Shown here in pieces: positions 3,167 to 20,602 of a stretch of DNA of 20,684 bases. Under the pieces are notes generated by a model. That model searched no databases, had not been told where the DNA came from, and worked only from the letters and a program-made list of their open reading frames with translations. How positions within the stretch are numbered: position 1 is the stretch's first letter; the number at the start of each line of letters is the position of its first letter. The stretch is from a virus. The position numbers and the translations under genes are program-made. Where the stretch lies: positions 1 to 20,684 of the IMG/VR virus record IMGVR_UViG_3300010354_000860; one strand, 5' to 3'.

Positions 3167-4965
3167 TGGCAAAAAAATATGTAGTTGAATTAGATGTCGA
3201 TGCATCAGCAGCAAATAATGCAGTTGATGGAGTTGCTGATAAGGTCAAAAATATTGGGGAACAAGGTAAGAAGAGTGCTGAAAAAGCGAGTGGTGGATTT
3301 AAAAAGATGGCTGAAACAATTACCAAATCTCTTGGTGTTGTTACTCTTATTGCTGGAGCATTAAATATAGTAAAAGATATAATTGCTCAAAATCAAAAGG
3401 TAGTTGATTTCTTTAGCGTAACATTTGGAGTTTTAGCTGATGTCGTAAGAGCAGCATTTGATTATATAACCAATAATGCTGGTAAAGTAGTTGATTATTT
3501 CAAACAGATATTTGATGATCCAGTTCAATCTTTAATTGATTTTGGAAATGCCATTAAAGAAAATATAATTGAGCGTTTTGTTTCTTTGGGAGAGACATTA
3601 GGATTAATTGGTAAAGCTGTTGCTGAATTCTTTACTGGTGAATTCACTCAATCGTGGGAGACATTAAAACAAGCTGGAAAAGAAAGTATTGATGTATTAA
3701 CTGGAGTAGATGATTCAGTAGATAAAATCAGTGAATCTGTTGGTGAAGCCGTAGATAAATTTGGCAAATTCATTGAGAAATCCATTGATTCTAATAAAGA
3801 ATTAGTTAAATTACAAAACAATGCGAAGATTGCTGCTGCTGAACAGCAAAGATTAGCTGAACAATACGATCGAAGTGCTGAATTATTGCGACAAGCAAGA
3901 GATGATGAACGCAAATCAATTGATGATAGGATTAAATCCAACAATCAGTTAAATGATGTACTTGATAAGCAAGAAGAAGCTGAATTAGCAGTAGCAAATG
4001 CACAAATAGACGCAGCACAAGCGACTTTTAATCACACTAAAAAATTAGATGACCAAGTTGCATTAACACAAGCGTTAGCGGCTGCGGATGCTGTTCGTGC
4101 AAAAATAGCTGGATTAAGGTCTGAACAGCAAATGAATGACCTTGCATTGAGCAAAGAGAAGAATGAATTGCTCAAAAAACAATCGGAAAGTGAAACGCAA
4201 TTAGACATAAATCAACAAAAGTTCTATGCATCGAGAATAAAGAATGATGAAAATCGAATAAATGCATTGATTAAAATTGCTCAACAAGAAAGAGCAATTG
4301 AACTCCAAAGATTACAAGAGCAGATTGATATTTACGCGGTAGGTACACAAGCGCGATTAGATGCAGAAATTGAATATGCTGCAAAAAAACAAGAGATAGA
4401 TCAGCAAATTATAACTCTTGAAGATGACAAGAAAAAAGCAGTTTTAGAAAGAATTAAAACTGAAGCTGAAAATGAAAAGAAATGGCAAGAACAGAAATAT
4501 GAATTAGCAGCAGCATCAATGACTGCATTAGCTGATTTGAGTTCAGCGTTAGAAGCTGCTGGAGTGTTAAATGCAGAACAAGCATTTAAAGTAAATAAAG
4601 CATTGATGATTGCACAATCCACAATGGGTGGAATCCAAGCAGTAAATGCTGTATTAGCTGATTTAACTTTACCAACAGCAATAAGAATTCCATTGGCAGT
4701 AGCTACTGGAATCAGTGCAGCAGCGAATGTTGCTAAAATCGCAGCAACTAAATTTAATTCGAACACAACACCAGATTCTAATGTACCACCATCAGCGAAT
4801 AATAACAATGTTAATAGTACATCTGCACCAATGTTGGATTTATCTTTCTTGAATAACCAAACAAATCAACCACAACCGCTACAAGCATATGTACTCGCGA
4901 CAAATGTGAGTTCAGCACAAGAAGCGAATGAGAAAATAAAAGACCAATCTAAAATAATAAAATAA
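3166..4965 (+). CDS. Tape measure protein
   Basis: Tape measure proteins set tail length and are packed inside the tail tube. This 599-residue protein has the expected composition: an Ala/Lys-rich start, hydrophobic helices at about 50-70 and 85-100, a long helical and coiled-coil region at about 200-460 rich in A, E, Q and K, and a hydrophobic C-terminal stretch at about 535-560 (TAIRIPLAVATGISAAANVAKIAA). A Asn/Pro-rich, low-complexity tail follows. It is short for a tape measure; by the usual 0.15 nm per residue rule it would suggest a tail of roughly 90 nm, if the tail is siphovirus-like. The start overlaps the previous stop (TGATG) and its stop overlaps the protease start (TAATG). An internal virion protein of a short-tailed phage is a less likely alternative. 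Confidence 0.8.
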   Translation: MAKKYVVELDVDASAANNAVDGVADKVKNIGEQGKKSAEKASGGFKKMAETITKSLGVVTLIAGALNIVKDIIAQNQKVVDFFSVTFGVLADVVRAAFDYITNNAGKVVDYFKQIFDDPVQSLIDFGNAIKENIIERFVSLGETLGLIGKAVAEFFTGEFTQSWETLKQAGKESIDVLTGVDDSVDKISESVGEAVDKFGKFIEKSIDSNKELVKLQNNAKIAAAEQQRLAEQYDRSAELLRQARDDERKSIDDRIKSNNQLNDVLDKQEEAELAVANAQIDAAQATFNHTKKLDDQVALTQALAAADAVRAKIAGLRSEQQMNDLALSKEKNELLKKQSESETQLDINQQKFYASRIKNDENRINALIKIAQQERAIELQRLQEQIDIYAVGTQARLDAEIEYAAKKQEIDQQIITLEDDKKKAVLERIKTEAENEKKWQEQKYELAAASMTALADLSSALEAAGVLNAEQAFKVNKALMIAQSTMGGIQAVNAVLADLTLPTAIRIPLAVATGISAAANVAKIAATKFNSNTTPDSNVPPSANNNNVNSTSAPMLDLSFLNNQTNQPQPLQAYVLATNVSSAQEANEKIKDQSKIIK

Positions 4966-18532: not shown

Positions 18533-18991
18533 TCAGAAAGGCATATCATCATTTGCATCCATCTTCCTATCATTTAACGCATTATCCACCGCATCTTGGT
18601 TAGCTTGTTGGCCTGTGGTTAGATAGTGTTCAAAATAAAGAGCCATATCTACATACACTTCTTTTTGCTCACCTATTCCAATAGCATCTACTGCTGCTTT
18701 CAAAGCAACAGCACGAGCGATTTCTACTTTGTCTTGTGGTGATTTTTGATATCCACCACCAGCATTACCAAATGATTTTGGAGCATCACCTACTGCACTA
18801 ATAAATTTAATTGTTGGTGTTGATTTACTATTACCAGCAATCTGATAGTTGTATTCCTTTCCAATTTCGAATTTACAATTACCTTTTGCGTAATTATTAC
18901 CTACATCTCCATTTTCAAATACAATTTCGAAGATTTTCATATCTTTAAAATCTCCATTTGGCTGCACATTTTTTACTTTACTTGTTTTCAT
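18533..18991 (-). CDS. Single-stranded DNA-binding-like protein
   Basis: The first 70 residues of this 152-aa protein are beta-rich (FEIVFENGDVGNNYAKGNCK, IGKEYNYQIAG, TIKFISAVG), consistent with an OB-like fold. A Gly/Ser-rich linker (70-85) is followed by a helix pair (VEIARAVALKAAVDAIG, VDMALYFEHYL). The protein ends in DANDDMPF, the acidic-Pro-Phe tip by which SSBs bind partner proteins. I infer that it coats single-stranded DNA during phage replication. The helical insert is not part of a typical SSB and resembles phage replication proteins of a similar plan that I have seen. The stop is just before a 44-base gap to the next gene. Confidence 0.7.
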   Translation of the reverse strand: MKTSKVKNVQPNGDFKDMKIFEIVFENGDVGNNYAKGNCKFEIGKEYNYQIAGNSKSTPTIKFISAVGDAPKSFGNAGGGYQKSPQDKVEIARAVALKAAVDAIGIGEQKEVYVDMALYFEHYLTTGQQANQDAVDNALNDRKMDANDDMPF

Positions 18992-19637: not shown

Positions 19638-19841
19638 TTAGATTATTTGAAAGATGAATATTTCAGTTCGTGCAGGTGAGTAATCATCGCCAGTGTGAGC
19701 GAATGCCCAACCATCTTGATCCATTCCATATTGCAATCCCATTTCTGATGCTTTCTCCAACACATAACGATTAGCTCTGTCTAAAGAATCGTAATTGCGA
19801 ACTTCGGCATTGATGCCTTCTTTGATGTGAACTTGATACAT
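19638..19841 (-). CDS. Hypothetical early protein (67 aa) behind a leader hairpin
   Basis: The product reads MYQVHIKEGINAEVRNYDSL, then a helix (DRANRYVLEKASEMGLQYG) and an aspartate-rich end (DQDGWAFAHTGDDYSPARTE). It resembles a small alpha/beta unit but has no known motif. Its start is preceded by an A-rich leader and, 22 bases upstream, by the first copy of a repeated hairpin. Confidence 0.6.
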   Translation of the reverse strand: MYQVHIKEGINAEVRNYDSLDRANRYVLEKASEMGLQYGMDQDGWAFAHTGDDYSPARTEIFIFQII

Positions 19842-19863
19842 AGTTTTTGTTTTTTTTGTTATT

Positions 19864-19882
19864 GTGCGTTGTGGATGCGCAC
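19864..19882 (-). promoter_or_regulatory. Leader hairpin, copy 1
   Basis: On the minus strand GTGCG pairs with CGCAC around a nine-base loop CATCCACAA. It is preceded by a run of six G and lies 22 bases before the start codon of the downstream gene, joined by an A-rich spacer. There is no T tract, so it is not a terminator. A second copy exists at 20118-20136 with a compensatory change in the outer pair. Confidence 0.6.
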
Positions 19883-19902
19883 CCCCCTTTATTATTTATT
19901 AA

Positions 19903-20094
19903 TTAATTCATTATTGTTTCATTACCCATTGTCCAATATGATAGTATGACCCCATTTTCTTTTGACAAAGAATTTATCAAACCATTGTTTCTGTAAATGA
20001 CATATATGGTTTTTTGTAATTTGAGAGAAAGTTCCATTGCTTCATCATTTATCAACATGAATGCAATTGTTCTTCTGATTTCAGTTGTTTCCAT
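19903..20094 (-). CDS. Hypothetical early protein (63 aa) behind a leader hairpin
   Basis: The product begins METTEIRRTIAFMLINDEAM and has a helix-strand pattern (LSLKLQKTIYVIYRNNGLIN) ending in LSKENGVILSYWTMGNET. No known motif is seen. It has the same type of A-rich leader and hairpin as the next gene downstream, with 23 bases between hairpin and start, which suggests shared control. Confidence 0.55.
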   Translation of the reverse strand: METTEIRRTIAFMLINDEAMELSLKLQKTIYVIYRNNGLINSLSKENGVILSYWTMGNETIMN

Positions 20095-20117
20095 TTGTTT
20101 TTGTTTTTTAGTTTATT

Positions 20118-20136
20118 ATGCGTTGAAGATGCGCAT
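20118..20136 (-). promoter_or_regulatory. Leader hairpin, copy 2
   Basis: On the minus strand ATGCG pairs with CGCAT around the nine-base loop CATCTTCAA. Four G precede it, and an A-rich spacer of 23 bases leads to the start codon. Stem length, loop length, loop ends (CAT...CAA) and distance match copy 1, while the outermost pair is A-T instead of G-C. Confidence 0.6.
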
Positions 20137-20152
20137 CCCCTATTTTATTATT

Positions 20153-20602
20153 TTAATTTATTTGATAAGTATCATAAGGAAAATGCTCATAATATGGACT
20201 AACAATCATTTTGCCCGTTAACTTATGACCAGATGGGGTTAATGTTATCCAATTTTCTTCTGTTGTATCTATTGCTCCCTGTTTAACACTACTACTACCA
20301 AATGATTGTAAATCACGCATGAATTTACCATTTGAATCAACTAAATAATAAAATTGATTCTTGTCGCATGAATACTTAAAAACAAAATTTCCATCATTTA
20401 ATTTACGCTCCATAAAATGACCATCTTTTGAATAACAACTATCAAATTGAGTACGATCATTGAATCTATTATTATGCATCCAATCGGAATAGAATTTTTT
20501 ATTACCATTGGCTCTTTGCCAATGTGCGTAACTGCATGGAATTGATGTTATTGGCTCTCCTTTATACTTGCCAAAATTCACGATTTTCACTTTGTTTTTC
20601 AT
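20153..20602 (-). CDS. Hypothetical early protein with an N-terminal FGKYKG segment
   Basis: I choose the ATG at 20602 (MKNKVKIVNFGKYKGEPITS, 149 residues) because of the A-rich leader just before it; the ATG at 20629 would add nine residues. The first 35 residues (VNFGKYKGEPITSIPCSYAHW) resemble the short FGKYKG...P..Y..W unit of DUF3820-like proteins, often found in phages. Residues 35-149 are rich in Tyr, Phe, Asn and Lys and look like beta strands with FYYLVDSNGKFM. A promoter candidate precedes it, so it is probably the first gene of this unit in the window. Function unknown. Confidence 0.55.
   Translation of the reverse strand: MKNKVKIVNFGKYKGEPITSIPCSYAHWQRANGNKKFYSDWMHNNRFNDRTQFDSCYSKDGHFMERKLNDGNFVFKYSCDKNQFYYLVDSNGKFMRDLQSFGSSSVKQGAIDTTEENWITLTPSGHKLTGKMIVSPYYEHFPYDTYQIN

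Follow-up and report, generated by a model that had tools for sequence, protein, structure and literature searches.

Why should two adjacent minus-strand genes of a viral record each be preceded by the same small RNA hairpin? The record, IMG/VR IMGVR_UViG_3300010354_000860, was analyzed over a stretch of 20,684 nucleotides (the window). An earlier note proposed that the intergenic gaps in front of two early genes contain a repeated unit, consisting of the AT-rich end of the previous gene, a G run, a 5-bp stem with a nine-base loop, and an A-rich spacer, and that a compensatory change of the outermost stem pair reflects selection for RNA structure. All of these details hold (Table 1). With up to three mismatches, the 17-mer TGCGCATCNNCAACGCA is matched 3 times in the window (the two copies exactly, plus one chance-like hit with 3 mismatches) against 0.32 expected, and none of 100 shuffles had as many, so a chance repeat is rejected. 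The window contains no third copy, although it is a 20.7-kb record of unknown completeness; it also holds no tRNA genes and no gathering-level match to an Rfam family (release 15).

Table 1. Features at and near the two copies of the element (positions in the window)
Position	Strand	Feature	Details
19864..19888	-	Pseudoknot copy 1	TAA-15 nt-GGGGG-GTGCG-CATCCACAA-CGCAC-22 nt-ATG; 25-nt core AGGGGGGTGCGCATCCACAACGCAC
19885-19887 / 19873-19875	-	Copy 1, stem 1	GGG with TCC; outer base 19888 unpaired
19883-19884	-	Copy 1, linker	GG
19878-19882 / 19864-19868	-	Copy 1, stem 2	GTGCG with CGCAC
19842..19863	-	Spacer, copy 1 to start codon	22 nt, A-rich, G-free
19638..19841	-	Downstream gene of copy 1	67 aa (MYQVHIKEG...), unknown function, no PHROG
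20118..20142	-	Pseudoknot copy 2	TAA-12 nt-GGGG-ATGCG-CATCTTCAA-CGCAT-23 nt-ATG; 25-nt core TAGGGGATGCGCATCTTCAACGCAT
20139-20141 / 20127-20129	-	Copy 2, stem 1	AGG with TCT; outer base 20142 unpaired
20137-20138	-	Copy 2, linker	GG
20132-20136 / 20118-20122	-	Copy 2, stem 2	ATGCG with CGCAT
20095..20117	-	Spacer, copy 2 to start codon	23 nt, A-rich, G-free
19903..20094	-	Downstream gene of copy 2, upstream neighbor of copy 1	63 aa (METTEIRR...), unknown function, no PHROG
20153..20602	-	Upstream neighbor of copy 2	149 aa from ATG at 20602
18533-18991	-	Probable ssDNA-binding protein gene	152 aa, ends in DDMPF (SSB-type acidic tail); no PHROG match

The feature is, however, larger than the hairpin. 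Both copies belong to an H-type RNA pseudoknot in which stem 2 is the hairpin of the earlier note, while the G run provides one strand of stem 1 plus a GG linker, and stem 1 pairs with the nine-base loop, which the note had left free. Relative to copy 1, copy 2 carries compensatory changes in both stems, with a G-C pair becoming A-T in each.

The unit is not confined to this virus. An exact scan of viral contigs returned, among chance hits in GC-rich contigs, a set of AT-rich contigs with the same layout in the same orientation: G4-G7, stem, loop, A-rich spacer, and ATG. Freeing the loop but keeping TGCG/CGCA gave many more, nearly all with a loop of exactly nine bases although seven to eleven were allowed. 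In all, 138 distinct copies were found, with more than 100 contexts in viral contigs beyond the window. The loops fall into two types: type I, CATC(C/T)NNAA and relatives, and type II, NCYNNNNAA and relatives. The first blastn searches with the type I element in named phages gave no real hit except in Corynebacterium phages, of which C3PO has two type I copies. Blastn with type II copies found the element in Mycobacterium phages (321 Mycobacterium records matched; Acadian, OSmaximus, Phelemich, and Rinkes were read and carry it), with the carriers including cluster B phages, and in at least 116 coliphage-like records of Stephanstirmvirinae, including phi92, phAPEC8, and the K-12 phages JohannJBalmer and PaulScherrer. 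Assignment of the AT-rich contigs to Bacteroidota hosts is an inference, based on the TerL of the window, which is closest to that of Flavobacterium phage 11b (44%), and on the lack of Shine-Dalgarno sequences in the leaders. Phage 11b itself, the closest named phage by TerL, has no copy. Whole records carry one to three copies, in gene orientation. The patterns used have no match in 395 Bacteroidota or 296 Actinomycetota genomes, and the phi92 region has none in E. coli genomes; these are pattern searches on samples rather than proof of absence. An additional genome scan with a pattern restricted to six Gs gave 16 hits, which are chance. Thus, the element looks like a shared, undescribed phage switch or docking site rather than a quirk of one virus.

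Multiple lines of evidence indicate that both stems are kept by compensatory change. Stem 2 was tested with a pattern that required the second pair to be changed and left its partner and the outer partner free. Seven loci in six contexts matched, and all carry the Watson-Crick partner, C-G in four contexts and A-T in two. Among the 138 distinct copies, the outer pair is G-C in 130, A-T in 2, C-G in 1, G-T in 3, and G-A in 2. Two related copies with the broken G-A pair, in the loci L084 (plus strand, 745) and L193 (minus strand), precede the same 209-aa gene and represent natural variants of the element. The second pair is T-A, C-G, or A-T, but pairing there was a criterion for that set and is not independent evidence. 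A motif kept without pairing in related phages, an outcome that would have counted against the earlier note, did not occur.

Stem 1 was noticed when the coliphage copy GGAG-GG-GTGCG-A-CTCC-TTAA-CGCAC was lined up with others, which have TGAG/CTCA, ATGG/CCAT, CCGG/CCGG, CGAG/CTCG, and CCAG/CTGG. In a fixed register, 16 distinct type II cores pair in 97.2% of cells, against 83.5% when shuffled, with 22 double changes, which occur in three of the four stem-1 pairs, and a covariation score of 0.380 against 0.126. None of 500 shuffles reached the percentage, the number of double-change cells, or the covariation score, and slid registers pair in only 18-43%. In 36 distinct type I cores, which set the register and pair counts used for the two window copies, 92.3% of cells pair, with double changes in both stems. 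The outer stem-1 pair is often absent in this type (22 of 36 not paired), so type I stem 1 is usually 3 bp including one G-U. Nevertheless, the flank base before the G run still follows loop base 6 (61/98 Watson-Crick against 33 expected; 23/53 against 16.4 when identical cores are merged). Because many rows are related, the shuffle counts are not probabilities, and it is the independent compensations in unrelated phages that carry the argument. Ordinary folding gives only the hairpin or, for phi92, the competing GGAG/CTCC helix. A scan of 2.56 Mb for the same fold with any stem-2 sequence found only chance-level hits beyond GTGCG and GCGCG (about 27 others, against 33-58 for control linkers), indicating that GCG/CGC is really conserved in the sampled set. 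The family can be written roughly as NNNN-GG-GTGCG-(1-2 nt)-NNNN-(3-4 nt, usually ending AA)-CGCAC. Together, covariation, strand, and position make an RNA function near certain, and the core claim of the earlier note, selection for RNA structure in a repeated leader of early genes, is strongly supported. Its alternative, a duplicated gene-cassette leader, is not exclusive, since the same element precedes 57 unrelated gene families.

The element lies between co-directional genes and, where this could be checked, near the head of early operons. In 126 clean contexts, the distance from the upstream stop codon to stem 2 is 11-17 nt in nearly all, with two below 11, while stem 2 usually ends 13-50 nt before the start codon, mostly 15-27 nt and longer in GC-rich phages. 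Of the 138 copies, selected by structure alone, 135 are followed by an ORF start on the same strand within 110 nt and 130 have a stop within 40 nt upstream; one of the 135, in Tr1, is probably spurious because a terminator intervenes. Downstream proteins form 57 families, mostly small unknown proteins, and upstream proteins form 86. The element stays with the same downstream gene while the upstream gene changes, for example 9 copies of one downstream family with 9 different upstream families. The family of the 67-aa protein of the window carries the element in 18 of 18 fetched homologues, although these loci were found through the element. Where ERF or SSB homologues lie in the same locus, ERF is downstream on the same strand in 29 of 29 cases and SSB in 19 of 20. 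The window follows this rule, with the SSB-like gene starting about 0.9 kb downstream. Spacers are G-poor at most other copies, containing 1-2% G in groups of 38% and 68% mean GC (1% in the 68% GC phages). However, CA-rich leaders also occur at some junctions of the same mycobacteriophages without the element.

Three coliphages depart from this arrangement. In Stephanstirmvirinae, the element ends a conserved, unannotated RNA of about 75 nt behind the last tRNA gene (phi92 54548-54621, locus L318:1952-2025; also loci L319, L320, L321, and L323-L326). This RNA, two predicted hairpins followed by the pseudoknot, matches no Rfam family and is possibly an independent small RNA. In phi92, JohannJBalmer, PsgM04F, phiWec190, and phiWec181 an ORF follows, but in phAPEC8, Ro121c4, and Tr1 an intrinsic terminator follows instead. 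The Ro121c4 copy has lost the outer stem-1 pair, which may be decay after loss of the gene. These three copies are the best evidence against a pure leader role. The element itself is not an intrinsic terminator, since it is followed by an A/C-rich spacer with 5-22% T; longer terminator-like hairpins encountered in three loci (L299, L306, and L309) were set aside.

What, then, does the pseudoknot do? From its retained link with downstream genes and start codons, we infer that it acts in cis as a portable 5'-leader module of the following gene. Stem 2 starts about where the footprint of a ribosome stopping at the upstream stop codon ends, and the fold is followed by a G-poor, A/C-rich single strand up to the start region. 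Our tentative preference is therefore for a translation-initiation (standby/recruitment and insulation) site, in which the pseudoknot and the unstructured spacer dock the 30S subunit, perhaps through ribosomal protein S1, a host factor present in all three host groups, so that the gene is translated independently of its upstream neighbor. The S1/30S step is inference only and rests on analogy: E. coli S1 binds H-type pseudoknots with nanomolar affinity, and tisB standby translation needs a pseudoknot plus a single strand (PMC7708055), while ACA motifs enhance initiation and occur in S1 ligands (PMC3879156). The tisB leader differs in having stems of 9 and 5 and a standby site about 100 nt from a sequestered ribosome binding site (PMC7708055). 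Furthermore, S1-bound pseudoknots are structurally diverse (PMC7708055), so S1 alone does not explain the near-invariant GCG/CGC, linker GG, and loop AA. The presence of only 1-3 copies per genome, near the operon head, also fits an operon-level role, and ERF genes often lack the element directly upstream (28 of 32).

The strongest rival, though unlikely on present evidence, is a processive antitermination site working like lambda nut or HK022 put, in which the nascent pseudoknot binds host RNA polymerase, alone or with a phage protein, and lets it read through pauses and terminators. The consistent position upstream of ERF and SSB genes, the low copy number, and the independence from which gene follows favor this idea, as does the conservation of RNA polymerase across the host phyla. 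The placement a few nt after a stop codon, where RNA is ribosome-free, also recalls lambda, where the annotated rutA region (which holds boxA) starts 7 nt after the cro stop. On the other hand, the coliphage copies sit at an operon end, and in phAPEC8 and Tr1 the element lies just before a terminator followed by what looks like a new promoter, an odd place for an antiterminator. Nor does this model require the regular link to a start codon.

Somewhat less likely is an operator for a phage or host RNA-binding protein that represses or times early translation. The T4 gene 32 leader pseudoknot bound by gp32 shows that phages do use leader pseudoknots for repression, and it has the same topology and layout, a pseudoknot followed by an unstructured A+U-rich leader (PMC3014915). 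In addition, the near-invariant core bases suggest specific recognition, and the window phage encodes the SSB-like protein in the same operon. However, the SSB-like gene itself is not directly preceded by the element. The gene 32 operator is found at one gene of T4-type phages and is bound by that gene's own product, whereas here a 25-nt core precedes 57 unrelated gene families in phages of distant hosts. One RNA consensus across such different phages would need a co-conserved protein, and none common to these phages was identified, though without a systematic search.

A processing or stability element, at which a nuclease cuts at or next to the pseudoknot or the fold blocks exonucleases, separating early mRNAs as T7 RNase III sites do, is doubtful. 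The intercistronic position next to the upstream stop and the occurrence as the last domain of the coliphage RNA behind tRNA genes are consistent with it, but stems of 3-5 bp are too short for RNase III and the core consensus is too specific for generic protection. Least likely is a DNA-level promoter, operator, or recombination sequence spread mainly by cassette shuffling (like T4 PeSL cassettes), because, although unrelated genes lie on both sides and the element probably does serve as a recombination junction, flank-to-loop covariation is not expected for a DNA site (a dyad operator is rejected as sole explanation), the asymmetric core always has the orientation of the genes, and no conserved flanking promoter motif is visible in the contexts. 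A precise junction of this kind is seen in the loci L086 and L077 (element regions at 4092 and 5853), where a nearly identical upstream flank and element are followed by different genes directly behind the leader.

Two further readings were rejected. A readthrough or frameshift signal behind the stop codon is not supported, since start codons fall in all three frames (49/42/35) and 71 of 126 gaps hold another in-frame stop. Shine-Dalgarno-like pairing of the G run with 16S rRNA was dropped because GCGCG and A-T variants break it and the run is tens of nt from the start codon.

Leader pseudoknots, standby sites, and repeated start-associated motifs are already known; this family, however, is not in Rfam 15, with no match near a family's threshold at the element in five element loci or in phi92 and Tr1, and was not found in the papers searched, which were limited to open full texts and simple terms. 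The start-associated sequences (SAS/ESAS) of cluster K mycobacteriophages are also repeated short motifs in front of unrelated non-structural phage genes, mostly in one orientation. However, SAS is a 13-bp sequence, GGGATAGGAGCCC, with AGGAG 3-7 bp from the start codon and 11-19 copies per genome; it is essentially restricted to cluster K, and its authors found little support for RNA pairing of the ESAS repeats (PMC3203893). Its sequence and distance differ from those of the element. PeSL cassettes are repeated intergenic stem-loop cassettes at shuffled gene junctions, but probably combine an early promoter with a terminator-like stem-loop. A sequence-conserved fold shared by phages of such distant hosts, not found in the sampled bacterial genomes and unannotated even in well-studied coliphages and mycobacteriophages, implies a common target in host gene expression. 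It is possible, though somewhat less likely than not, that this is a phage-only RNA device, passed between unrelated phages of Bacteroidota, Actinomycetota, and Gammaproteobacteria, whose pseudoknot docks a core host factor common to all of them (30S/S1 or RNA polymerase) to give selected early genes privileged expression, which would be a cross-phylum host-takeover RNA with no described counterpart. The element could become a compact portable expression element, its function being directly testable in phages of E. coli K-12 and M. smegmatis, and supplies a marker for early operons in uncultured Bacteroidota phages. The annotated start of Acadian gp91 (NC_023701, 67148-67459; locus L291:4649-4960) is the GTG of stem 2, and the real start is probably the ATG behind the element and its ribosome binding site.
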